Shown here: positions 26,876 to 41,098 of the stretch, in pieces
Position numbering within the stretch: the stretch's first letter is position 1
Layout: each line of letters starts with the position of its first letter
Assembly: GCF_001434465.1 (NCBI RefSeq)
Contig: NZ_AZGE01000012.1
Location: 1 to 46,168 of the forward strand
DNA from: Limosilactobacillus oris DSM 4864
GTDB taxonomy: Bacteria > Bacillota > Bacilli > Lactobacillales > Lactobacillaceae
Length of the DNA: 46,168 nucleotides
Direction: 5' to 3'
Position numbers and translations under genes: made by a program
Notes under the pieces: model-generated
Told to the model about the DNA's origin: nothing
The model's database searches: none
The model's input: only the letters and a program-made list of their open reading frames with translations

Positions 26876-28414
26876 TTAGTCTTTAATCTGCTTTACTTCG
26901 TCAATCAAAGTTCCGTCACGGTATTCAACCAGGGCCACAGTCCGGTCAGTGTATTCGATTGACTTTGGCTTGCCAACGATTCCTTCTGCCCGCTTTTGCA
27001 GTTCTTCGATTGAAACCAGCGGAATGCTTGGAGCCTTCTTGAAGGCTTCAATGAGGTCCTTCCGTGCTGGGTTAACGGCTACCCCGACTTCAGTAACCAG
27101 GACGTCAATGGATGAGCCTGGCGTAGTGATGGAGTTAACGGCGGGAACAACGGTGGCAATCCGGCCCCGGGTCAGTGGAGCGGAGATGATCGTCATCTTA
27201 GCGGTACCAGCATCCTGGTGACCACCAACGGCACCCCGGATAACCCCGTTGGAACCAGTCAGCACGTTAACGTTGAACTTGGTGTCGATTTCCAGGGCAG
27301 ACAGGATGGCAACATCCAGTTGGTCAACCATGGCACCCTTGTTGTCAGGGTCGGCGTACCAGGAACCGTCAATTTCGATTTGACCAGGGTTGGACTTCAT
27401 GCTGGAAGCGGCACCCTTGTCAAAGTCTTGGACGTCCATAACCTTCTTAACCAGGCCTTCTTCAAGCAGCTTGACGATTGGTGAAGTCGTTCCCCCACAA
27501 GTGAAGGCAGCCGTAACGTCATTGTCCAGCATAGATTGACGCAGGTAACGGGTAACGGCCAGTGAAGCACCACCAGTACCAGTCTGGAAGGAGAAGCCGT
27601 TCTTGAAGTAAGGTGAGTTAACGATGACATCGTTAACCATCTTGGCAATCTTCAATTCCTTCGGGTCCTTAGTGAACCGGGTAGCCCCACTACCGATCCG
27701 GTCAGGGTCCCCAACCTTGTCAACCTTAACCACGTAGTCAACCTGGGTCTGCTTGATGGAAGCAGGCGTGTTCGGGTAGTCGGCAATGGTGTCAGTCAGG
27801 AGAACCACCTTGTTAGCGTATTGGGCATCCACCAGGGCGTAACCAAGGGAACCAAGGGCGGAGTCACCTTCCATCCCGTTAGCGTTCCCCATCCGGTCGG
27901 AGTTCGGAACACCCAGGAAAGCCACGTCAATCTTGATGTTGCCATTTTCGATGGAACGCGCACGGTTACCGTGGGAACGGAAGATAACCGGGTTCTTCAA
28001 CAAACCGTGAGAAACGGCTTCACCCAGGCTGCCCCGCATTCCGGAGCTGGTAATGTTAGTGATGGTGCCGGCCTTGATGGCTTCAACCACCTTATCGTTC
28101 ATTACACCGGTCAAAGAAGATGGCGCCAGGGTCAGGTCCTTGTAGCCCATCTTAATGATCTTATCCATAACCATGTTGAAGACATAGTCACCATTCCGGA
28201 AGTGGTGGTGGAATGAAATCGTCATCCCGTCCTTCAGGTTGTCCTTGATGACTTGGTCTAAGGAGTCGACCAGCTTGTCGTCACCCTTGGTTACGCGAAC
28301 ATCGTGGCCCGTGTAGTGAACCGTTGGGTGGCCAATTTCGGTAGTTTCAAATGGCTTGTAGTTAGTTGAGTTTAAGATTTCGTCTGAGATTTCACGACCG
28401 ACACTATTTTTCAA
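26876..28414 (-). CDS. citF: Citrate lyase alpha subunit (citrate:acetyl-ACP transferase)
   Basis: This 512-residue subunit transfers the acetyl thioester of the acyl carrier protein to citrate, releasing acetate. Its size and blocks ([21 protein letters not shown], GLxG-like turns in [11 protein letters not shown]) match CitF. The start is TTG at 28414: it lies nine bases after GGAGG, gives MKNSVGREI as in CitF proteins, and sits within the last codons of citE (11-bp overlap). An ATG six codons earlier would sit on the ribosome site itself. It works in a complex with CitD and CitE. Confidence 0.95.
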
Positions 28415-29309
28415 TGTATTCACCCTCCTCATTGATCAGGTTGGAAGCCTTAGCTAAGCGAATTACCCGTTGTGCACGCAGGACAACGGGGCGGTCAACC
28501 ATTTGACCGTTCATGGAAATAACACCGGAACCCTTCTGGTGGGCTTCTTCAATGGCTGCTTCCACGTCCAACGCGTTTTCGATTTCTTTCTTGGTTGGCT
28601 CGTAAACCTTGTTAACCCAGTCAATTTGCCGTGGGTTAACAAGGGACTTGCCGTCAAAGCCAAGTTCGTGGATGTGTTCAGTTTCCCGCTGGAAGCCTTC
28701 CACGTCGTTCATGTTGGTGAAGACGGTATCGAAGGCGGCAATTCCAGCAGCCCGGGCGGCGTGGAGAATCATGTTCCGCGCAAATTCTAGTTCGGCGCCG
28801 TCTGGGTAACGGTGGGTCTTCATGTCAGTCGTGTAGTCTTCGGCAGACAGGGCCAGACCAATCATCCGGTCGGTACTTGCGGCGATTTCTGGGGCGTTTA
28901 GAACACCCTTCGCGCTTTCAATGGCGGCCATGACATGGGTTGAGCCAGGTTCGCGGCCGAACTTCTTTTCGGCTTCTTCCACTACCTTGACCAGGTCGAG
29001 CATCATTTGAGCGGATTCAACCTTTGGCAACCGCACAACTTCGATGCCGGCCTTAACCATGGCGTAAACATCATTCTTGAAGTATGGCGTGTCAATCCCG
29101 TTGACCCGGACAACCAACTCAGAGTCGCCGTAGTCTTGGGTTTGTAATGCTTCGTAAACCAGCATCCGGGCAGCATCCTTTTCCGACATGGAAACAGAGT
29201 CTTCCAGGTCGAACATAATGGAGTCCGCACCGTAAATACCAGCATCCTTAACCATTCCGGCGTTGTTCCCCGGAACAAACATCATGGTCCGACGTAAACG
29301 TTCTTCCAT
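28404..29309 (-). CDS. citE: Citrate lyase beta subunit (citryl-ACP lyase)
   Basis: This 301-residue HpcH/HpaI-type lyase splits citryl-ACP into oxaloacetate and acetyl-ACP. Typical blocks are [11 protein letters not shown] near the N-terminus, MFDLEDSV with a metal-ligand acidic residue, and [12 protein letters not shown]. It lies 2 bp after citD and overlaps citF. The ATG is preceded by GGGAGG inside the end of citD. Together with CitD and CitF it yields the oxaloacetate used by CitM and, probably, the malate dehydrogenase-like enzyme at 34.3 kb. Confidence 0.95.
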
Positions 29310-29311
29310 TA

Positions 29312-29605
29312 TTAAAATACCTCCCAGTCTGGTTGATCCGTAGTTTCCAGAGCCCGTTGTGCGGCTGCCATGGTCCGTGCCTTCACAACACAGTCCAGGG
29401 CTCCTTTGTCAACGGCCTTGACGTTCGCGTTGTCAATTCCGTAGGCGTTCAAAGTCTCAGTGATGACCTTGCGAATTTGGTCGCCGTACAGCTCCTCCAC
29501 TGAGGAATCTAGGTCGATATTGATTCCGTTGTCGCCCTTGCTCAGGGTGATTTGGATATCGGATGATTCCAAAGTTCCTGCAAGTGCAGTCTTCTTAATA
29601 TCCAT
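29312..29605 (-). CDS. citD: Citrate lyase gamma subunit (acyl carrier protein)
   Basis: This 97-residue acyl carrier carries the phosphoribosyl-dephospho-CoA group, which CitXG makes and attaches, at a serine near residue 14 (AGTLESSD). CitC acetylates the thiol. Its start ATG overlaps the TAA stop of citC by one base (TAATG), so translation is coupled. Length and order are usual for the citCDEF unit. Confidence 0.94.
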   Translation of the reverse strand: MDIKKTALAGTLESSDIQITLSKGDNGINIDLDSSVEELYGDQIRKVITETLNAYGIDNANVKAVDKGALDCVVKARTMAAAQRALETTDQPDWEVF

Positions 29606-30648
29606 TATTCTAAACTTCCTTCCTTAATGCGTGCTCTGAGATCAGACCAGTGATTTTGAATAAATGAGAGCGTCGTTTGTGGAACGTAATCTTGCACCAC
29701 CGCTAATTCATCGTTAGCAATCGCTGCTCGTACCTTCGTGGCTGAAATCACGTCCTGACTAGCATTAGCAGCCCGATCCAGGATTTTGACCTCAACCTCA
29801 GGTGGTAGAACCCTAGTTAATTCTTGGTTATAAATATCAGTTGTCGGCGAGAACGGCTCGCTGCCAACGTAACGCCGCGTAATGTTTAACGGCGCGGCAA
29901 TTTGCTCCTTAAAGAGGGTGGCGTCCAAAGCGGCCTGAAAGTGGGCCACGTTTTGGTCGTCTTTAAGGAAATAGGCCGGGAACGTGGCGTAGGAAACCAT
30001 GTAGTCCCCGCCAGGAACCACCGTCACGTTGTCCAGGTCGGCGCACCCCGCTTGGACTAGCTGGTAACGCTCCGCAGCGGTAAAGAGCGAGGCCTCCTGG
30101 CTGACCACGAAAACGTAGACGTGGTCGTTTTCTTTGCTAGCCTGCTCCACCAAGTAGCGGTGGCCGTTGGTAAAGGGGTTGGCATTCATCACGATACCAG
30201 CAATTTGACTATCGTCCTGGTCGGCAAAGTGCGGCAGGTCCTGGATGTAGTCGTGAACGTCCGGGGTCCCATTCTCCATGATGGCCCCGTCGTCAACCAC
30301 CGCCAGGGCGTGAAAACCAACGTAGCCGAAGCTCTGGACGTACTGAGGCTTGGTAAAGACGAAGAGGTGGAAGCGGCCCATTGTTGCCGCCTCGTTGACC
30401 AGCTTGCTGACCAGCTCATTAAAGGTTTCCCCATGGCCCTTGACCTTGGAACAGACAGCGATGTATTTCAGGACGTTGCCGGCAATCGAGCCGGTCGCCA
30501 TAATCTCGCCGTCCTCCTCCCAGACGAAGGTTCGCTCAACCTGCTGGGTTTCCTTTGGTGAAAACTCCGTGATTCCCGTCTTTTTTAAGAACGCCTGCCA
30601 CTTGGCAAAGTTCCGCTTGATGTGAATGTTGATTTCACGAACCTGCAT
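29605..30648 (-). CDS. citC: [Citrate lyase] acetate ligase
   Basis: This 347-residue enzyme activates citrate lyase by acetylating the CitD thiol with acetate and ATP. The N-terminal part (about 1-130) is GNAT-like (ATGSIAGNVLKYIAV). The C-terminal nucleotidyltransferase domain begins with MNANPFTNGHRYL, carrying the GH of the HxGH-type site. GGAGG precedes the ATG, which lies 17 bp after the citM stop. It overlaps citD by one base. Confidence 0.94.
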   Translation of the reverse strand: MQVREINIHIKRNFAKWQAFLKKTGITEFSPKETQQVERTFVWEEDGEIMATGSIAGNVLKYIAVCSKVKGHGETFNELVSKLVNEAATMGRFHLFVFTKPQYVQSFGYVGFHALAVVDDGAIMENGTPDVHDYIQDLPHFADQDDSQIAGIVMNANPFTNGHRYLVEQASKENDHVYVFVVSQEASLFTAAERYQLVQAGCADLDNVTVVPGGDYMVSYATFPAYFLKDDQNVAHFQAALDATLFKEQIAAPLNITRRYVGSEPFSPTTDIYNQELTRVLPPEVEVKILDRAANASQDVISATKVRAAIANDELAVVQDYVPQTTLSFIQNHWSDLRARIKEGSLE

Positions 30649-30665: not shown

Positions 30666-31820
30666 TTACTTCTTGCTCGCCGCGTAATCCTTGACCGCTT
30701 GGGCCACCGTATCCACGACCCCGTCATCAAAGACGCCGGGGACAAAACGGTCGGCCGTCGGTTCGGGTACAAGACTGGCAATCCCTTGGGCAATCGCCTT
30801 CTCCAGGCCAAAGTCCACCTTGTTCAGATCGGTTGCCAGCAGGCCCTTGTAGAGGCCCGGGAAGACCAAGATGTTGTTGACCTGGTTCGGGTACTGGCTC
30901 GAACCAGTTGCCATCACCTGAACCCCCGCTTCGTGGGCCACGGCCGGGTCAATTTCCGGCTTCGGGTTGGCCAAGGCAAAGATAATCGGGTTATCTGCCA
31001 TCTTCTTAACCTGGTCGGCGCTTAAAACGTCGGCGTCGGACAGGCCAATAAAGACGTCCCGGTCGCGAACGGCTTCGTCCAGGTCAGCATAAGCAGTCTC
31101 GTCACTGCTCTGCTTAACCAGGTCCGTCTGGTAGTGGTTATAGTTCTTACTATCAGCGTGAACCGGACCATCAATGTCGACGAAGGTGATGTTCTTGATA
31201 CCAGCTGCGAAGAGAAGGCGGGCGGTCGCAACCCCTGAGGCCCCCACCCCGTTGATGACAACCTTCAAGTCGGTCAGCTGCTTGCCAACCACCTTGGCGG
31301 CGTTGATCAAACCGGCTAGAACTACGATGGCCGTCCCCTCCTGGTCATCGTGGTAGACGGGAATATTAACTTCCTTCGCCAGTTTTTCCTCAATTTCAAA
31401 GCAGCGGGGGGCCGCAATGTCTTCGAGGTGGAAGCCGGCAAAGGACTCCTGCATGTTCTTCAAGGTACTAACCACTTCATCTGGTGAAACCTGCTCGACG
31501 GTCAGTGGCAGGGCATTTACCCCGGACAAATCCTTGTATAAGAGGGCCTTTCCTTCCACGATTGGCAAGCCGCCGGCCGGGCCGATGTTTCCCAGGCCGA
31601 GCACTGCGGAGCCATCCGTGACCAGGGCGACCAGCTTGCCGCTCATTGTGTACTTATCCTTTAACTCCGGATAACGTTCAATCAGCTTAGAAATAATCGC
31701 CACGCCTGGCGTGTAAGCCTCGCCTAATTCCTGCTTGTTGTGGACCGCAAACTCCGGTGAGATGGCAAGCACACCGTGGTGTTTTGCATGAAGTGATAAT
31801 ACTTCTTCGTCTTTCATCAT
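30666..31820 (-). CDS. citM: CitM, malic-enzyme-family oxaloacetate decarboxylase
   Basis: This 384-residue short-form malic enzyme family member has the tyrosine region YTPGVA, lysine and acidic metal-ligand blocks (FHLEDIAAP), YHDDQEGTA and a nucleotide site NGVGASGVA. In lactic acid bacterial cit clusters the gene at this place (CitM) decarboxylates oxaloacetate to pyruvate, so that role is likely; oxidative malate decarboxylation is the alternative. I start at the ATG at 31820, six bases after GGAGG, rather than two codons upstream. It is the first gene of the cit operon. Confidence 0.9.
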   Translation of the reverse strand: MMKDEEVLSLHAKHHGVLAISPEFAVHNKQELGEAYTPGVAIISKLIERYPELKDKYTMSGKLVALVTDGSAVLGLGNIGPAGGLPIVEGKALLYKDLSGVNALPLTVEQVSPDEVVSTLKNMQESFAGFHLEDIAAPRCFEIEEKLAKEVNIPVYHDDQEGTAIVVLAGLINAAKVVGKQLTDLKVVINGVGASGVATARLLFAAGIKNITFVDIDGPVHADSKNYNHYQTDLVKQSSDETAYADLDEAVRDRDVFIGLSDADVLSADQVKKMADNPIIFALANPKPEIDPAVAHEAGVQVMATGSSQYPNQVNNILVFPGLYKGLLATDLNKVDFGLEKAIAQGIASLVPEPTADRFVPGVFDDGVVDTVAQAVKDYAASKK

Positions 31821-31844
31821 TAACATCCTCCAACCACTAGGCCT

Positions 31845-31970: not shown

Positions 31971-32918
31971 ATGGACGCAGAACACAACCAGCTCCTGGCA
32001 ACCTTAGCGCAGGACTACTACCTCAGTAAGATGGCCATCAGTGATATTTCCAAAAAGTACCACCTCAGCCGCTATCTCATTATGAAATACCTGGATGAAG
32101 CGCTGGCCTCGGGGATTGTCAGCATCAACATCCACACAGATTACGACCGCAACGCTAAACTAGAACGCACCCTCCAGCAGCACTTCAAGATTAAAAACCT
32201 CATCGTCATCAAGGACCCGACGAATCCCCAAGACCGCGACCAAATCATCGCGACCTTCGCGGCCAACCAGGTCCAGTCACTGATTAGGGACTGCCATACG
32301 GTCGGGCTGACCTGGGGCGAGACTATCTACGCCATGCTCGACCACTTCAACAAGCAGACCGCCAGCCAGCTGACCTTTACCCAGTTTATGGGCGAAAACA
32401 TGCGCTACCACTCCTCGGCAGCGTCGATGCGGATGGTCCAAAAGGCCGCGGCCAAGTACGATGTTCCCTACCAGACGATTCCCGGTCCACTGTACATCAT
32501 TAATGACCAGGCACGGACGGCCCTTTACCAGGAGCCGGCATTCACCGCGGCGTTTACGGCGGCCCGCCGGATGGATATTATCATTTGTGGGCTCGGCACC
32601 CGCCAGTCCATCAACAGTATTCCCGCCTGGGCGGAGAACACTGACCGGATTTTCCCCGGAGTCGACCTGGGTAAGATTGCCGGTGTCGCGTTTGGACGGC
32701 CCTATGACCTTCACGGCCGGTTCCTGGTGTCGCCGGAAAATGACAAAACCCTTTCCATCCCCCTCGACCAAATCATGCGGGTGCCCCGACGGCTTGCCAT
32801 CGTCCAGCGAAAATCAAAGTTCCAAGCGGCCCGAGGTGCTTTGGAGGGGAAGCTCTTCACCGACATGATTCTGACCGAGTCAGTTGCCTTGCGGATTACC
32901 GACGCCCTCGGAATTTAG
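31971..32918 (+). CDS. citI: CitI, SorC/DeoR-type citrate regulator
   Basis: This 315-residue protein has an N-terminal helix-turn-helix (KMAISDISKKYHLSRYLIMKYL) and a SorC-type sugar-phosphate-isomerase-like effector domain (GLTWGETIYAML, IICGLGTRQS). It is divergent from citM in the arrangement known for CitI/CitO, the citrate-responsive activator of cit genes in lactic acid bacteria. AGGTGAAGG precedes the ATG. The assignment as CitI rests on family and position. Repeat copy C begins 8 bp after the stop. Confidence 0.88.
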   Translation: MDAEHNQLLATLAQDYYLSKMAISDISKKYHLSRYLIMKYLDEALASGIVSINIHTDYDRNAKLERTLQQHFKIKNLIVIKDPTNPQDRDQIIATFAANQVQSLIRDCHTVGLTWGETIYAMLDHFNKQTASQLTFTQFMGENMRYHSSAASMRMVQKAAAKYDVPYQTIPGPLYIINDQARTALYQEPAFTAAFTAARRMDIIICGLGTRQSINSIPAWAENTDRIFPGVDLGKIAGVAFGRPYDLHGRFLVSPENDKTLSIPLDQIMRVPRRLAIVQRKSKFQAARGALEGKLFTDMILTESVALRITDALGI

Positions 32919-33171: not shown

Positions 33172-34256
33172 TTACCAGAGGCCAATAACCTTCATCCACT
33201 AGAACTAGAGAACCACTTGATGAAGCCTAATTCTGACAGTTGACCAGCCATGTATACCAGGACAGACAGCCAGATCAGAACGTTCCAAGCACCAGTTTCG
33301 TGCAGCAGGTCCTTTGTGTCCAGGACACCGGTAATCAACAGCAGGGAAATTGCCAAGAAGGCGACGAAGGTGGCGTCAATTGCTGGGATGAAACTAGTTA
33401 ACATCCAGAGAACCAGGGTCAGGATGAAAATCAAGCCCATCAGCTTTTCAGAAATCTTCATCTTGCCCATCTTGTCTAACTCTTCGTTAGCCCATTCCTT
33501 CGCGTTAGGCGTTTCCTTAACCTCAGGCGGGTACATCTTGTAGATAATGTATGGAGTAGCAAGCAGACAGATAACACTTGGAACAACACCGGCAACGAAC
33601 CAGCCCAACCAGGTAATGTTGATGTGCAGGGTCTTTGCCAGGGCCACGATAACTAGGTTTGGTGCCATGGCCGTCATGAACGTTGCAGAAGTAATCAGGT
33701 TACTGTGGAATTCAGAGAAGACCAGGAATGAACCAATCTTCTTCCGTGTGCCCTTCTTGGGGTCAGATCCGTAAGTTTCTGCCAGTGACTTCACGATTGG
33801 GTAAACAACCCCACCGGCACGCGCCGTGTTGGATGGGATGGCTGGTGAAGTAACCAGGTCGATCCCCATGATGGAGTACGCTAACCCCAAACTCCGGTGA
33901 CCGAAGCTCCGGACGAATACCAGGGCAATCCGGCGTCCCAGGCCGGTCTTGATGAAGCCCCGGGAGAGCATGAAGGCCATTGCAATCAGCCAAGCAGATG
34001 AGTTACTGAAGGCGGTCAGGGCCCCCTTCATTGGTGCCAGACCTACCAGCACCATCACCGTGAAACCGACTAGGGTCGTCCCGGCAATTGGCAGCGGCTG
34101 GGTGATACAGCCGACGATTGTGGCAACGAAAATGGCAAACATGTGCCAAGCAGCTAATGAAACGCCATCCGGCCGAATTGGACCACAGAACCACAGGATT
34201 AAACCAATGGCAAGTGTCCAGGCCCAGGCCTTAGTTTTGAACTTTGATAATTCCAT
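33172..34256 (-). pseudogene. DASS (SLC13-like) dicarboxylate transporter, internally deleted
   Basis: The gene encodes 354 residues with the DASS N-terminal blocks (ITQPLPIAGTTLVGF, SNSSAWLIAMAFMLSRGF, ITSPAIPSNTARAGG-like DLVTSPAIPSNTARAGG, SEFHSNLITSATFMTAMAPN) and then stops after FIKWFSSSSG at 33192. Family members are about 470 residues. In another frame right at that point, 33198-33172 reads WMKVIGLW and stop, which looks like the usual DASS C-terminal tag. So roughly 110-120 codons seem to be deleted, with a frameshift at the join. It is the last gene of the fumC operon. The carrier is probably inactive. Confidence 0.75.
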
Positions 34257-34297: not shown

Positions 34298-35233
34298 TTA
34301 CAGCTCTACGCCGTCAAGAACTTCCTTCATCTTGGCAGCCGAATGAGCCATCTTCTTACTCTCTTCTTCTGAAAGGTCATGTTCGATAACCTTCACGATT
34401 CCGCTAGTGTTAATGACCGCTGGAACCCCCAGGTAGAGGTCAGAAACACCGTATTCACCATTTAAGGGTGCGGAGATTGGCAGGGTCACGTTGCGGTTTT
34501 CCAAGATAGCCTTCACGATGTAGGCCAGGCACTTGGCGACGCCGTAAAAGGTGGCACCCTTGCGTGCGATAATCTTACCGCCCCGCTCCTTCACCATTTC
34601 CTCGATTCCAGCGTAATTAGTTGCGGTGAAATTGGCAACTTCTTTAAGCGGCTGGCCGTTGACCGTAGCTTCATCAAAGGCTGCAAAGGATGTATCCCCG
34701 TGCTCGCCCATGATGTGGGCGTCGATCTCGCTTACCGGTACGTTCAGTTTTTCTGCCAAAATCACGTTTAAGCGGGTACTATCCAGTGACGTTCCCGTCC
34801 CGATGACCCGGTTCTTAGGGAACCCAGACATCCGCTGAGTCAGAGTTGTCAAAATATCAACCGGGTTGCTGGAAACCACGAAAATGCCGTGGAAACCGCT
34901 GTCGACGATTGGTTGAACAATTGTCGACAAGATTTTGGCATTCTTGTTAACCAGGTCCAACCGGGTTTCGCCCGGCTTCCGGGGTACCCCAGCGGTAATT
35001 ACGGCCACATCCGCGTCGGCAGCGTCAGCGTATTCGCCGGAACGAATAATCGTTGGTGCCTCCAAAGGGGTAATGTCTTGCAGGTCCATGGCATCCCCGT
35101 CCGCCTTGTCCTTGTTAAGGTCGACAATCACCAATTCATCAACTTCCTGCGTCGTTTGCAGCAGCGAGTATGCAAATGACGAACCAACCGCACCATCACC
35201 GACTAGGAGAACCTTGTGGCGACGTTTAATCAT
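34298..35233 (-). CDS. L-lactate/malate dehydrogenase family enzyme, Arg102-type (probable malate dehydrogenase)
   Basis: This 311-residue NAD-dependent 2-hydroxyacid dehydrogenase has the LDH fold with GDGAVGS near the N-terminus, Arg91 (Arg109 equivalent), Asp151, Arg154 and His178 (EHGD). At the specificity position just before KPGETR, LDHs have Gln102; here it is Arg85, in AGVPRKPG, as in malate dehydrogenases. The change of Gln102 to Arg is known to switch LDH to oxaloacetate. Together with fumC and fumarate reductase next door this suggests oxaloacetate reduction to malate. I start at the ATG 35233 after GGGAGGA. A longer frame upstream has no ribosome site. Confidence 0.85.
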   Translation of the reverse strand: MIKRRHKVLLVGDGAVGSSFAYSLLQTTQEVDELVIVDLNKDKADGDAMDLQDITPLEAPTIIRSGEYADAADADVAVITAGVPRKPGETRLDLVNKNAKILSTIVQPIVDSGFHGIFVVSSNPVDILTTLTQRMSGFPKNRVIGTGTSLDSTRLNVILAEKLNVPVSEIDAHIMGEHGDTSFAAFDEATVNGQPLKEVANFTATNYAGIEEMVKERGGKIIARKGATFYGVAKCLAYIVKAILENRNVTLPISAPLNGEYGVSDLYLGVPAVINTSGIVKVIEHDLSEEESKKMAHSAAKMKEVLDGVEL

Positions 35234-35275
35234 ATCGAATTCCTCCCTGAATAAGGTTAAAAATAATTGCTTATC

Positions 35276-35311: not shown

Positions 35312-36706
35312 CTACTTGAGGCTGCGGGCGTAGAGGGTAACCTGCTGCCCAGCCTGCCGGCCAAAGACAATCGTTTCGGCGATGGAATTCCCGCCGACCC
35401 GGTTGTTACCGTGCAGGCCACCAGCAACTTCACCCGCGGCAAAGAGCCCCTGGATGATATCCCCGTTGCCATCGAGAACCTGAGTCTTCGGCGTAACGTG
35501 GATTCCACCCATCGTGTAGTGGATAGCTGGGGCAATGTGGATGGCAAAGAAGCCCGGCTTGGTGATGCCCCGGTCCATCCCAGTCGTCCGGTGGAACTCG
35601 GCGTCATCATGGTTTTCCACGGCCTGGTTCCAGGTCGTAACCGTCTGCTTCAAGGTTGCCGGATCCATGTTCAGCTTCTCAGCCAAATCCTCAACCGTAT
35701 CACCATGAACAACCAGACCTACTTTGTCGTAGAACTCAATGGCCTTGGCCCGGTCACGGATGCCCTGGTCGAAAATCAGGTAAGCACTGTGCTCTGGCAG
35801 GGCTGTGATGGCGTTGGAAACGATCTTCCGGGTATTCAGCTCATTCACGAACCGCTGCCCGTCTGCGTTAACCAGGATAGCCCCTTCACCACGAACAGCT
35901 TCCCCAATCAGGTAGACATGGGGGTTGTCCTGCTGAACGGTTGGGTGAACCTGAACCAGGTTCATCTGCATCAGCTCAGCACCAACACTTTCGGCCAATT
36001 TCAGGCCGTCACCGGTAGCCCCCGGTTGGTTGGTCGTCTTGTAGTCCTTGAGGTCGGGGCGGAAGCGTTCGATGTATTCCTTAGAAGCACCGAAGCCCCC
36101 GGTTGCCAGAATCACTGCCTTGGCACTGACCTGCTTCGTAAGGTCGCCAGACTTGACTTCAACGCCGTTAACCCGGCCTTCCGCGTCTTGTAAGAGCTTA
36201 ATGACCTTGGTGCGGTTAAAGACCGGAATATCTTCCTTGGCTACAACACCGAGGAGGCTGTTGACCAGAAAGCCACCAATCGGCGCCATACTTGCTGGCC
36301 GGTGGGTCCGCTTCTTGGACATTCCCCCGGTAACGGTGATGTCATCCAGCTTGATGTCGTGGTCAGCTAACCAGTCGATTGCCGGCGCGGTATGGTAGAC
36401 GAAGTAGCCCAGCATGTCTTTATCGTTGAGCCGGCCACCATCCTTGTAGGTTTCACGGTAGAAGTCACCGACGTTGTCAATCACACCGTGGTGTAGCTGA
36501 ACGTTGGTCTCGGCGGCGTTCATCCCGGAAGAGGCCCGGTTGGTGTTCCCACCCAGTTCCTCTTCTTTTTCCAGCACGGCCACCTTCATGCCCAGCTCGT
36601 GGGCCTGAATAGCAGCGGCCAGCCCGGTTCCACCAGAACCAATGATGACAGCATCATAGCTGTCATCCAGCTTGCTAACTGATAATGGTTGAAACTTTTC
36701 TGCCAT
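35312..36706 (-). CDS. frdA: Soluble fumarate reductase flavoprotein
   Basis: This 464-residue FAD protein of the flavocytochrome c / fumarate reductase / urocanate reductase group has GSGGTG (23-28) for FAD, LGGNTNRASSGMNA (51-64), the active-site block around RFVNELNTRKIVSNAI and the final HYTMGGIHV region. No haem or FMN-binding domain and no signal peptide are present, so it would be a cytoplasmic enzyme. It lies 22 bp after fumC and probably reduces fumarate to succinate. A different enoate substrate is possible, but the neighbours favour fumarate. Confidence 0.88.
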   Translation of the reverse strand: MAEKFQPLSVSKLDDSYDAVIIGSGGTGLAAAIQAHELGMKVAVLEKEEELGGNTNRASSGMNAAETNVQLHHGVIDNVGDFYRETYKDGGRLNDKDMLGYFVYHTAPAIDWLADHDIKLDDITVTGGMSKKRTHRPASMAPIGGFLVNSLLGVVAKEDIPVFNRTKVIKLLQDAEGRVNGVEVKSGDLTKQVSAKAVILATGGFGASKEYIERFRPDLKDYKTTNQPGATGDGLKLAESVGAELMQMNLVQVHPTVQQDNPHVYLIGEAVRGEGAILVNADGQRFVNELNTRKIVSNAITALPEHSAYLIFDQGIRDRAKAIEFYDKVGLVVHGDTVEDLAEKLNMDPATLKQTVTTWNQAVENHDDAEFHRTTGMDRGITKPGFFAIHIAPAIHYTMGGIHVTPKTQVLDGNGDIIQGLFAAGEVAGGLHGNNRVGGNSIAETIVFGRQAGQQVTLYARSLK

Positions 36707-36728: not shown

Positions 36729-38117
36729 TTAGTCTTCACGATCAACGTTAGTCATCTTCAGCATATCCATCCATTCGTCGTACTGTTCTTCAGTCACCTT
36801 GCCGGACTTCAGGGCTGCTTCCTTCAACGTGCTGCCAGCCTTGTCAGCGGCTTGGGCAATCTTGGCGCTGTCGTGGTAACCAATGTGTGGTGACAGTGCG
36901 GTAACCGTCATCAGCGAATTGTCAACCAGTTCGGCCATCCGCTTTTCGTTAACGGTCATGCCAGCAACACAGCGGTCAGCAAAGCCAGTGATGGTTCCGG
37001 CCAAGAGGTCCGCCGATTCCAGGAAGGCGTCGATCAGGACGGGCTTGTAAACGTTCATTTCAAAGTTACCTTGGGATGAAGCCATCGTAACCACGGTATC
37101 GTTACCGAAGACCCGAATAGCTGCCATCGTAACGGCTTCCGCCTGGGTTGGGTTAACCTTCCCTGGCATGATGGATGAGCCTGGTTCGTTAGCTGGAATG
37201 TTTAATTCATCATAACCAGCCCGGGGACCAGAAGCCAAGAACCGAATATCCTGGGCAATCTTGAACATGTCAGCGGCTAAAGTCTTCAAAGCACCGTGGA
37301 CTACATCCAGTCCAGAGTGGTTAGCTAAGCCGTAGAACTTATTACTCTTGGCAGTCAGCTTCAAGCCGTAAACTTCAGACAGCTTTTCAGCAATCTTTTC
37401 TGGCATCCCTTCGGCGGCATTCAAGCCAGTACCAACGGCAGTCCCACCAATGGCTAATTCGTTCAGGGTTGGTTCCAAAGTCTTGATGTAGTCCAAGTCG
37501 TGTTCTAGTGCGGAAACGTAGCCAGAAACTTCTTGACCGAACGTCAACGGCACGGCATCTTGCAGGTGGGTCCGGCCAACCTTAACCGTCTTCCAGTACT
37601 TGTCCTGTTTGATCTTCAATTCGTCAATCAGGTGTTGAACCGCTGGCTTCAGGTTGTCTAAGGCTTCCAAAGCCACCACGTTCATCGCGGTTGGGAAAGT
37701 ATCGTTTGAACTCTGCCCCTTGTTGACATCATCGTTTGGCAAAATTTCGATGTCCGGGTTGATTTCGTGAGCCTTGTGGGCCACGACTTCATTAGTGTTC
37801 ATGTTGGTCTGCGTCCCAGAACCAGTCTGGTAAACCTTCAATGGGAAGTCCTTGCGCAGGTCTTCATCGCTTAACGCAAGCAATTCATCGATTGCCTTCA
37901 CGATTAAGTTACCCTTGTCAGCAGAAATTGCATTGGTTTCCATGTTCGCCTGGGCCGCTGCCTTCTTAATGTTCAGTAAAGCACGAATAATTGCTAACGG
38001 CATGTACTGACCAGTTGGGAAATTATTGCGGCTCCGTTCCGTTTGCGGTCCCCATAATGCACTTGCGGGGATTTTAACTGGGCCTAAAGTATCTTCTTCT
38101 GTTCGGTAATCAGACAT
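36729..38117 (-). CDS. fumC: Class II fumarate hydratase
   Basis: This 462-residue enzyme interconverts malate and fumarate without an iron-sulphur cluster. Signature motifs are GSSIMPGKVNP (313-323), GRTHLQDAVP with His184, and TGSGTQTNMNTNE (98-110). The start at 38117 (MSDYRTEED) follows GGAGG; a longer frame has no ribosome site. It is the first gene of the unit fumC-frd-dehydrogenase-DASS. The codons are of the highly expressed type. A candidate operator lies upstream at 38156. Confidence 0.96.
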   Translation of the reverse strand: MSDYRTEEDTLGPVKIPASALWGPQTERSRNNFPTGQYMPLAIIRALLNIKKAAAQANMETNAISADKGNLIVKAIDELLALSDEDLRKDFPLKVYQTGSGTQTNMNTNEVVAHKAHEINPDIEILPNDDVNKGQSSNDTFPTAMNVVALEALDNLKPAVQHLIDELKIKQDKYWKTVKVGRTHLQDAVPLTFGQEVSGYVSALEHDLDYIKTLEPTLNELAIGGTAVGTGLNAAEGMPEKIAEKLSEVYGLKLTAKSNKFYGLANHSGLDVVHGALKTLAADMFKIAQDIRFLASGPRAGYDELNIPANEPGSSIMPGKVNPTQAEAVTMAAIRVFGNDTVVTMASSQGNFEMNVYKPVLIDAFLESADLLAGTITGFADRCVAGMTVNEKRMAELVDNSLMTVTALSPHIGYHDSAKIAQAADKAGSTLKEAALKSGKVTEEQYDEWMDMLKMTNVDRED

Positions 38118-38440: not shown

Positions 38441-40069
38441 TTAATACTTTGCTTCCCAGGTCATTTTCTCCACAGCCGTTTGGGCGTCTGTGATTCCCTC
38501 ACCGGCCAAGTCCTGGTCGATTGCCGACTGGGCAACCGTGATGGCAACCCGCTTCGAGAAGTCCGCTAGCTTCTCCACCGGCGGAAGGACGGCGGCCCCC
38601 GGCTGGTCAGGGTCGACAATGCCACTCAGGGCGTGCGCGGCGGCTGCAATCATCTCATCATTCAACAGCTTGGCTTGGGCGGCCAGGGCGCCAAAGCCAA
38701 CTCCCGGGTAAATCAGGGCGTTATTGGCCTGACCAATGTGGTAATCTACGCCGTCATAATTAATCGTCCCCGCCGGAATTCCGGTGGCAACCAGGGCCCG
38801 GCCTCCAGTCCACTTTAGCAGGTCGGCCGCCTTGGCTTCGGCCAGCTTAGTGGGGTTGGATAGTGGGAAAATTACTGGTCGCTTAGTATGGGCCGCCATC
38901 TCCTTGACGACTGCTTCATTGAAGGCTCCCGGCTGGGTCGAGGTGCCAATCATGACCGTTGGGTGCACCGCCTGAACTACGGAAAGCAGGTCAGTCAGCT
39001 CATCCGCATTTGCAAATTCGGCCCGCTGACGGGTAAACGGTTTTTGCTTCGGGGTCAAACCCGGTGTGTCTTCGAAGAGGAGCCCCTGTTTATCAACCAG
39101 GTAGAAGCGCTTCTTCGCTTCCGCGGGCTCCATCCCCTGCCGAATCAGTTCCTCGTACAACATTTTAGCGATTCCCATACCGGCAGTTCCGGCGCCAAAG
39201 GTCAGGAAGATCTGGTCGGTCAGCTTTTCCTTAGAGATGTTCATGGCACCCAGGACCCCGGCGAGGGAAATGATCCCGGTACCCTGAATATCATCATTAA
39301 AGGTTAAAATCTGGCCCTGGTACTTATCGAGGATCTGGGCCGCGGTGCCCCGACCGAAATCTTCGAAGTGGAGCAGGCTCTTGGGGAAGAGTTTCTCAAC
39401 TTCTTCGACGAAGCGATCGATAAAGGCAAAGTACCGGTCGCCACGAACCCGGTGCTGGCGGTTGCCAAGGTAGTTAGGATCATCCAGCAGCTGCTGGTTG
39501 TCAGTCCCTGCGTCAATCGATACCGGCAGGACCTGGGCCGGGTCAATGCCAGTGGCCGCGGTGTAGACCATCAGCTTCCCGACCGAAATATCGACCCCGT
39601 TGACTCCCCAGTCACCAATTCCCAGGATTCCCTCCGCATCGGTGACCACAATCAGGCGAATATCACGACCGTCCGCAGCAGCGGCCAGCTCCGTGGCAAT
39701 GTCCTCCGGATGGTTGACATCCAGGTAGGCGGCATCCTGAGGCCGCAGGTAACGCTCATCGTACTGTTCGATGGACTCGGCAATTACCGGGTCATAAACA
39801 ATCGGCATGAATTCGGTAATGTGCTGCTTCATCAGGTAGAAAAACAAGGTCCGGTTGGTATTGAAAATTTCCATCAGCAGGTGGCGTTTTTCAATTCCCG
39901 ACGTTTTAGACTGGTACAAAGCGTAGGTTTCTGCCGCCTGTTCTTCGATTGTCCGCACGTGGGTTGGCAACAGGCCCAGCAACCCCAGCTCTCGGCGTTC
40001 CGCCATCGTAAACGCCGTTCCCTTATTCTTAAAGGGGTCATTTAAGATTTGCATTCCCTTACGCATCAT
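38441..40069 (-). CDS. mleS: Malolactic enzyme
   Basis: This 542-residue enzyme converts L-malate to L-lactate and CO2 with NAD and manganese. It belongs to the malic enzyme family, but its N-terminus ([14 protein letters not shown]), length and C-terminal end (EKMTWEAKY) follow the malolactic enzymes of Lactococcus and Oenococcus closely. The nucleotide site FGAGTAGMG and metal block [11 protein letters not shown] are intact. MleR-type regulator in divergent position supports the call. Start: ATG 40069, with GAGAGGG about 11 bases upstream; a second ATG follows directly. No malate permease gene (mleP) lies next to it, which is unusual. Confidence 0.93.
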
Positions 40070-40216: not shown

Positions 40217-41098
40217 ATGAAGATCAAGGATCTTGAATACTACCAAAAATTAGTCGAATACCAAAATTTTTCCCAGGTTGCTGCTCACTTCCAAGTCAGC
40301 CAGCCGACAATCACGATGGCCATTCAGCGCTTAGAAAAGGACTTTGGCAGTGCCTTTTTCATCCGGGACCACGTTCATAAGCAGCTGCACATCACACCAG
40401 CGGGCCAGCAGTTTGCCAACCACGTTACGGTCATCCTTAACGAACTCCGGGTGGCCCGGGAAGAAATCGCTCGGACCCAGTCGACCCGGATTCGCTTTGG
40501 CCTGCCGCCAATTATCGGCAACTACTACTTTCCCCCGCTCACCCCGATGCTGATGCGGGCCAAGCTGATGTCCCACCTCGACACCTATGAACACGGCTCC
40601 AAGGAGCTGTTGCGGATGCTGGAACAGGGTCAGCTGGACATTGCCCTCCTCGGCTCTCTGGAAGCCCTCCACCAGGCCCGCCTGCACACCCAGGAATTTG
40701 CCCACTATCCTTTTAAGGTCATCGTCGGCAAGAACCACCCGCTGGCCCGTCAAAAGAAGGTCTCTTTTGCTGCTCTTAAAAATGAACGTTTTATCGTCCC
40801 AGGAAGCGAATTTTTCCACGAACAGGCTTTCAAGCAGATGTGCCATAATGCCCATTTTCGCCCGAAGGTTCTTTTCCGCACACCCGACATCCACGTGATC
40901 AAGGCGATGGTGGCCGAAAATCTGGGAATTTCATTTCTGACCCAGCTGGCGATTGTCCCGAGTGACGATGTTGTTGTCCTCGCGATCACCGATGACGACC
41001 AGCCGACTTTCAGACTTTCACTAGCGACCCGGGAAACCGAGGTTCTCTCAGCCGACCAGCAAAAACTCTGGCAGCTATTGACGGAACAGGCGAAATAA
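40217..41098 (+). CDS. mleR: MleR-type LysR regulator
   Basis: This 293-residue LysR protein has an N-terminal helix-turn-helix (FSQVAAHFQVSQPTITMAIQ) and an effector domain starting with IRFGLPPIIG. It is divergent from mleS, the known arrangement of the malolactic regulator, which responds to malate. The protein at 20500 is a paralogue. GGGGGA lies nine bases before the ATG. Residues in the effector domain that would bind malate cannot be assigned here. Repeat copy D begins after its stop. Confidence 0.9.
   Translation: MKIKDLEYYQKLVEYQNFSQVAAHFQVSQPTITMAIQRLEKDFGSAFFIRDHVHKQLHITPAGQQFANHVTVILNELRVAREEIARTQSTRIRFGLPPIIGNYYFPPLTPMLMRAKLMSHLDTYEHGSKELLRMLEQGQLDIALLGSLEALHQARLHTQEFAHYPFKVIVGKNHPLARQKKVSFAALKNERFIVPGSEFFHEQAFKQMCHNAHFRPKVLFRTPDIHVIKAMVAENLGISFLTQLAIVPSDDVVVLAITDDDQPTFRLSLATRETEVLSADQQKLWQLLTEQAK

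Follow-up and report, generated by a model that had tools for sequence, protein, structure and literature searches.

A putative malate dehydrogenase of lactate dehydrogenase origin in Limosilactobacillus oris and its relatives

The residue at position 102 of lactate and malate dehydrogenases (LDHs and MDHs) is a classic target for the engineering of substrate specificity. A 46,168-nucleotide stretch of Limosilactobacillus oris DSM 4864 DNA (contig NZ_AZGE01000012.1; the whole stretch is termed the window) contains a gene for an LDH-like protein with arginine at this position, which raises the question of whether an LDH has been converted to an MDH in nature. Such a conversion had been proposed in an initial sequence-only reading and is largely supported by phylogenetic trees, by the presence of Arg102 together with Gly236 and by a conserved pathway context. 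The gene probably encodes an NAD-dependent MDH that descended by duplication from a Gln102 LDH within the Lactobacillaceae lineage and serves a route from citrate to succinate. The putative MDH function is proposed because of the Arg102 residue, the gene context and a clostridial precedent.

An LDH-like protein with Arg102

The gene (34298..35233, minus strand) was classified as an Arg102-type, LDH-derived putative MDH gene on the basis of its reading frame, matches to LDH models, diagnostic residues and trees. The frame starts with an ATG at 35233-35231 and is complete, with 311 codons for amino acids and no internal stops. A ribosome-binding-like stretch, GGGAGG (35242..35247, minus strand), was read from the sequence 8 bases 5' of the ATG. 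Sequence and alignment confirmed the arginine that had been reported at LDH position 102. It is residue 85, encoded by CGG (34979..34981, minus strand, read from 34981 to 34979), and sits within TAGVPRKPGETRLDLV, where the host's own Gln102 LDH (L002) has TAGAPQKPGETRLQLV in the alignment. The Gln codons CAA and CAG differ from the Arg codons CGA and CGG by a single base. Relatives with 88% identity are found in Limosilactobacillus viscerum, L. panis and Candidatus L. intestinipullorum.

Profile searches verified the overall LDH pattern of the protein. Two L-LDH models were matched above their cut-offs (NF000824, 419 bits, cut-off 339; TIGR01771, 353.4 bits, cut-off 303.55), and the catalytic residues D168, R171, H195 and R109 are retained, as they are in all 46 Arg102 rows from Lactobacillaceae in the working alignment. 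The bacterial MDH model TIGR01763 gave 222.8 bits and thus stayed below its cut-off of 351.85. The broad 'malate dehydrogenase' model NF004863 gave 283 bits at a cut-off of 283, and 280.5 bits for the Gln102 paralogue. Among solved structures, LDHs scored best (9jlo, 346.5 bits; 1ez4, 338.9 bits), and the top 'malate dehydrogenase' entry among the best 60 solved relatives reached 190.7 bits. The resulting NCBIfam name, L-lactate dehydrogenase, would hide a putative malate dehydrogenase and is a warning for automatic annotation.

The host genome encodes seven members of the superfamily. A second, Gln102-type LDH had been suggested as something to look for and is present (L002, 54% identical to the window protein); the other five paralogues are 27-37% identical to the window protein. 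Four host-genome paralogues (L003-L006, 32-37% identical) have loops unlike those of LDH or MDH and are perhaps hydroxyisocaproate-type dehydrogenases.

A gene cluster for citrate, malate and fumarate

Profile matches confirmed that the gene lies between genes for a fumarate reductase and a dicarboxylate carrier and near a fumarase gene, as had been read from the sequence. The minus-strand order is malolactic enzyme, fumarase, fumarate reductase, dehydrogenase and DASS carrier. The malolactic enzyme (38441..40069, minus strand, 542 amino acids) matched NF041582 with 974.2 bits (cut-off 850). The class II fumarase (36729..38117, minus strand, 462 amino acids from the ATG) gave 583 bits with its best model, TIGR00979, which is under the cut-off of 664.75, a score exceeded in 1 of 396 Lactobacillaceae genomes. 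The fumarate reductase flavoprotein is of the flavocytochrome c type (35312..36706, minus strand, 464 amino acids) and was assigned by TIGR01813 (482.9 bits, cut-off 285.45) and NF005064 (620.4 bits, cut-off 542). Intergenic gaps are 22 bp between fumarase and reductase, 78 bp between reductase and dehydrogenase and 41 bp between dehydrogenase and carrier, so that these four genes may form one transcription unit.

The surroundings extend beyond the neighbours named in the sequence-only reading, with the malolactic enzyme, a malic-type enzyme and citrate lyase genes close by. A LysR-type regulator (40217..41098, plus strand), matched by LysR-family models with none over its cut-off, is divergent from the malolactic enzyme gene. 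On the other side of the carrier lies a divergent SorC/DeoR-like regulator (31971..32918, plus strand; NF053881, 108.1 bits, under the cut-off of 420), which we take to be CitR and which separates the carrier gene from those for citrate lyase. It is followed by a short malic-type enzyme (30666..31826, minus strand, 386 amino acids), which gave 291.6 bits with NF009501, a longer model, under its cut-off, and is probably an oxaloacetate-decarboxylating enzyme. Then come the citrate lyase ligase CitC (29605..30648, minus strand; TIGR00124, 358.9 bits, cut-off 262.1), the beta subunit CitE (28404..29309, minus strand; TIGR01588, 479.8 bits, cut-off 443.4) and the alpha subunit CitF (26876..28432, minus strand; TIGR01584, 778.4 bits, cut-off 501.45).

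The DASS-family dicarboxylate/citrate carrier gene (33192..34256, minus strand) is shortened at its 3' end. It encodes 354 amino acids and matched profile positions 3-328 of 444 of TIGR00785 (313.3 bits), compared with lengths of 473-489 amino acids in the 14 relatives listed. The carrier has 474 amino acids in the genome of L024, whose dehydrogenase is 99% identical to that of the window. Letters resembling the C-terminal end of the relatives' carriers are found in another frame just downstream of 33192-34256, and it looks as if the 3' part was deleted and is out of frame, or as if the assembly is in error there.

Diagnostic residues of the Arg102 proteins

The extent of the Arg102 type was analyzed in Lactobacillaceae. 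Of 396 genomes, 71 have a homologue that scores at least about 374 bits; a copy was aligned from 44 of these 71, and Arg102 was found in every one of the 44. The working alignment contains 46 Arg102 and 7 Gln102 rows from Lactobacillaceae. Outside this family and the 12 MDH rows it contains 48 Gln102 rows, 6 Arg102 rows, among them L145 and the MDH-like L144 (P250, A246), and a single Met102 row (L135); L144, L145 and L135 were omitted from later trees. Once the loop columns were excluded, the Arg102 rows from Lactobacillaceae formed a single clade (support 100/99, with all 37 rows that remained after thinning), which was recovered again when columns 199 and 236 were also removed. Given 46 Arg against 7 Gln rows and one Arg clade in loop-free trees, Arg102 is more than a chance variant and is a clade-wide trait of Lactobacillaceae.

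Residues 199, 236, 246, 250 and 68 were numbered from motifs and by their offset from T246, and the groups compared were defined by residue 102, so that a value such as 55 of 55 for Gln102 rows is a count inside that group. The window gene (R102/S199/G236/T246/V250/D68) and all 46 aligned clade members carry arginine in place of the Gln102 of canonical L-LDHs. Gly236 is found in all 46 clade members and, more widely, in each of the 52 non-MDH Arg102 rows and the 12 MDH rows, whereas all 55 Gln102 rows have Ala236; position 236 presumably lines the substrate pocket. Glu199 occurs in every one of the 55 Gln102 rows; among the 46 clade members, position 199 is Ser in 39, Glu in 4, Leu in 2 and Gln in 1. 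Thr246, in contrast, is retained throughout the clade (46/46), and position 250 is Val in 43 members and Ile in 3, with the MDH-type P250 in 0 of 46. Position 68 is Asp in all 46 Arg102 and all 7 Gln102 rows from Lactobacillaceae; the remaining 48 Gln102 rows have His and the 12 MDH rows have Glu.

According to the available text of PMC9486893, LDHs are marked by Q102, D/E199, T246 and I250 and MalDHs of type 3 by R102, M199, A/S246 and P250. R102 is the one residue of the latter four that the window gene has. Of the LDH signature at 199 and 246, each of the 46 clade members keeps T246, and 4 of them keep E199. The combination of R102 and G236 with T246 and V/I250 is thus read as an LDH framework in which two pocket positions are in the MDH state. 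The same text (PMC9486893) describes Thr246 as disfavouring oxaloacetate, so that some activity with pyruvate may remain. Glu199 was kept by L066, L070, L079 and L080 in the residue alignment, with L085 as a fifth case. Several of these members branch near the clade base in the broad-sampling and resampled trees and may for this reason represent early or dual-specificity forms.

A protein that is still mainly an LDH, or a broad 2-oxo-acid reductase acting on both pyruvate and oxaloacetate, is an unlikely alternative. LDH models above cut-off and the LDH-like T246 and V250 speak for it, as do the overlapping LDH and MDH activities of a clostridial pair of paralogues (available part of PMC3268733). 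Arg102 and Gly236 without exception among the 46 rows and the loss of Glu199 in 42 of them argue against it, as do a coexisting Gln102 LDH in the genome and neighbours that belong to the oxaloacetate-malate-fumarate-succinate route.

Direction of the proposed change

A sparse first tree (89 rows, few non-Bacilli LDHs and the very long Olsenella row L023) attached the MDH outgroup among the Arg102 rows, a result against the LDH-to-MDH reading. For the broad tree, clostridial and actinobacterial LDHs were added, L023 was dropped (its copy L138 was kept) and loop columns 82-88 were excluded. Here the Arg102 clade (37 rows, 100/99) joined the Gln102 LDHs of Lactobacillaceae (44 rows together, 100/99), and these joined other Lactobacillales LDHs (49 rows, 99/99), all inside the LDHs of Bacilli and Clostridia. 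The nesting remained the same after removal of columns 199 and 236 plus three long rows. It was also unchanged in a resampled tree, in which the Gln102 rows from Lactobacillaceae were not monophyletic. The rooting of the sparse tree inside the clade was treated as a combined sampling and long-branch effect.

Approximately unbiased (AU) tests compared the nested tree with a grouping of the Arg102 clade with MDH. The nested tree was better in all three comparisons, by 16 to 22 log units. The MDH grouping was rejected for the broad tree (p 0.029) and not for the trimmed (p 0.168) and resampled (p 0.153) trees; further reduction of sampling bias thus kept the nested tree and weakened the rejection, which the great length of the MDH branch makes uncertain. 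A topology that unites all Gln102 rows and leaves every Arg102 row outside was rejected (p 1.3e-5); in this test, Arg102 rows from Clostridia and Olsenella were pooled with those of Lactobacillaceae. The branching of the gene with Lactobacillaceae LDHs and outside the MDH clade, which the earlier reading had named as a check, thus stands in the broader trees and is qualified by the sparse tree and by two of the three AU tests.

An ancestral Arg102, with nothing converted, is considered quite unlikely. Besides the sparse tree and the two AU values that do not reject a grouping of the clade with MDH, an intermediate group of MalDHs with R102 and T246 (A. fulgidus 2x0i and Ignicoccus, in the available text of PMC9486893) shares these two residues with the window protein and would fit such an origin. 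According to the same text these enzymes have M199 or a similar residue and P250, whereas the window protein has S199 and V250. Unlike them, the Arg102 clade nests inside the LDHs, in trees that do not extend to the published intermediate sequences. A root on the Arg102 stem would moreover make the Lactobacillaceae LDHs the earliest branch of all sampled LDHs, contrary to species relationships. The nesting under broader sampling, the single AU rejection and the rejected topology that unites all Gln102 rows also count against it. Asp68, which among Gln102 rows the clade shares only with those of Lactobacillaceae, bears on the direction as well and points to an LDH origin. A change from LDH to MDH is thus strongly suggested, not proved.

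Pathway neighbours across the clade

To compare gene neighbourhoods, 40 Arg102 and 26 Gln102 loci were collected and filtered; at least 3 kb of sequence was required on each side and neighbours within 5.5 kb were counted. Three duplicates (L053, L090, L179) were dropped, as were L063, L079 and L082, each with a flank shorter than 3 kb; of these, L063 and L079 had pathway neighbours. One or more pathway neighbours were present at 30 of 36 distinct Arg102 loci and at 0 of 24 Gln102 loci (Fisher p 3e-11, a value that ignores kinship, the 36 loci not being phylogenetically independent). The 36 Arg102 loci included 20 with fumarase, 17 with fumarate reductase, 27 with a DASS carrier, 21 with citrate lyase genes and 18 with a malic-type enzyme; the neighbour set was drawn from the cluster of the window itself, so that other contexts cannot show up. 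Six loci (L055, L056, L068, L072, L077 and L087) were without pathway neighbours. At L055 and L056, from some Limosilactobacillus genomes, the Arg102 gene adjoins a kinase-like frame (TIAGHDSDGSAGMPADLHAFF) and not the fumarase cluster.

Canonical MDH was absent from the lineage in the sense that no TIGR01763 match above cut-off was detected in any of the 396 Lactobacillaceae genomes. Across the class Bacilli, 107 of 121 genomes exceeded the cut-off of this model, and the other 14 include all 9 Lactobacillales. Having lost the canonical MDH, the lineage would have had reason to make a new one. A fumarase-family match was found in all 71 genomes with a homologue of at least about 374 bits and in 239 of the 325 others, at a cut (E < 1e-100) that may admit aspartase-like matches.

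That Arg102 selects another dicarboxylic 2-oxo acid such as 2-oxoglutarate, with an incidental place in the operon, would fit the six loci without pathway neighbours and the comparable side reactions known in the superfamily; it is nevertheless very improbable in view of the 30 loci that have them and of the fumarase-family match in every genome with a strong homologue.

A proposed route from citrate to succinate

The preferred reading, a conversion of an LDH to an MDH, would have started with the duplication of a Gln102 LDH within the Lactobacillaceae lineage. Gln102 would then have changed to Arg, which would pair with the second carboxylate of oxaloacetate, Ala236 would have changed to Gly and the acidic Glu199 would usually have been lost, the order of these substitutions being presumed. 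The remaining LDH active-site residues (T246, V250, D68 and D168/R171/H195/R109) would have been kept. Oxaloacetate released by citrate lyase, the presumed substrate, would be reduced to malate by the window enzyme, and malate would be converted via fumarate to succinate by the clustered fumarase and fumarate reductase. The route would reoxidise NADH if it runs in the NADH-driven direction, as we infer. Decarboxylation by the malic-type enzyme may be an alternative fate of oxaloacetate.

An LDH-derived MDH would thus fill a gap in the citrate-to-succinate pathway, and the clade would account for a capacity to form succinate from citrate in lactobacilli that have no canonical MDH. In the accessible part of PMC4604094 the pathway of L. 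fermentum 222 is called incomplete because the malate dehydrogenase gene is missing, and 'mdh' is annotated in L. plantarum 80. In L. reuteri, a malate dehydrogenase was assigned by BLAST (PMC6821008, in the part available). These sources show that MDH function is already assumed in some lactobacilli.

Comparison with known enzymes and parallel cases

The canonical L-LDHs of Lactobacillaceae, represented by the L. pentosus enzyme (PDB 1ez4) and 9jlo, share T246, V250, D68 and the catalytic residues with the window protein. They differ in having Gln102, Ala236 and Glu199, where the window protein has Arg102, Gly236 and Ser199, and the 24 Gln102 LDH loci counted above lack the fumarase and fumarate reductase cluster in which the window gene lies. 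MalDHs of type 3 (TIGR01763) have Arg102, Gly236 and the presumed reaction in common with the window protein, which is without the M199, A246, P250 and E68 of their 12 rows.

The four natural transitions described in the available texts of PMC4109310 and PMC9486893 run from MDH to LDH. In the apicomplexan, Cryptosporidium and trichomonad LDHs (PMC4109310, as far as available), specificity also changed after duplication, from MDH to LDH, whereas the opposite direction is proposed here. No description of an LDH-to-MDH reversal in nature, or of the window gene in lactobacilli, was found in searches of open-licence PMC papers. A natural reversal across a whole family, in which close Gln102 relatives still live, would offer a clean system for studying the roles of positions 236 and 199 and reversibility.

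The clostridial precedent is provided by C. cellulolyticum, for which the available part of PMC3268733 reports two paralogues that were first predicted to be LDHs. The Arg-bearing Ccel_0137 adjoins a malic enzyme gene and is the primary MDH of this organism, as 28% of malate dehydrogenase activity remained after its inactivation. Like the window gene, it belongs to the LDH family, has Arg102 and has a malate-pathway neighbour. Its role is NADPH-linked transhydrogenation, whereas succinate formation is proposed for the window gene. The authors' own tree, in that part of the paper, gave no support for a duplication within Clostridia. In the present trees, the clostridial Arg102 genes L164, L139 and L140 formed a separate clade adjoining clostridial Gln102 LDHs (moderate support, 93/83 in the broad tree and 79/93 in the trimmed tree), with Q199 and H68 in contrast to S199 and D68 of the window protein, and they possibly represent an independent LDH-to-MDH change. 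All three have Arg102, Gln199 and Gly236, and L164 (1501-3744) is followed by a malic-enzyme-like frame.

At least three changes of residue 102 were counted on the tree without columns 199 and 236, and residue 236 gave the same number. It is a plausible but tentative proposal, a little short of probable, that the Gln102-to-Arg change from LDH to MDH took place in Clostridia (L164, L139, L140) as well as in Lactobacillaceae, and perhaps also in a relative of Olsenella (L138), each time with Ala236Gly and, with few exceptions, loss of Glu199. The route would then be a small, repeatable set of substitutions and not a change at position 102 alone. The Olsenella gene, at 8001-8930 of L023 (the same protein as L138), encodes a 40% identical protein with Arg102, Ser199, Gly236 and Asp68 on a very long branch. 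L135, an LDH-model protein from the same Atopobiaceae genome as L023, has Met102 (TAAAPMKDSNDR) together with Glu199 and Gly236.
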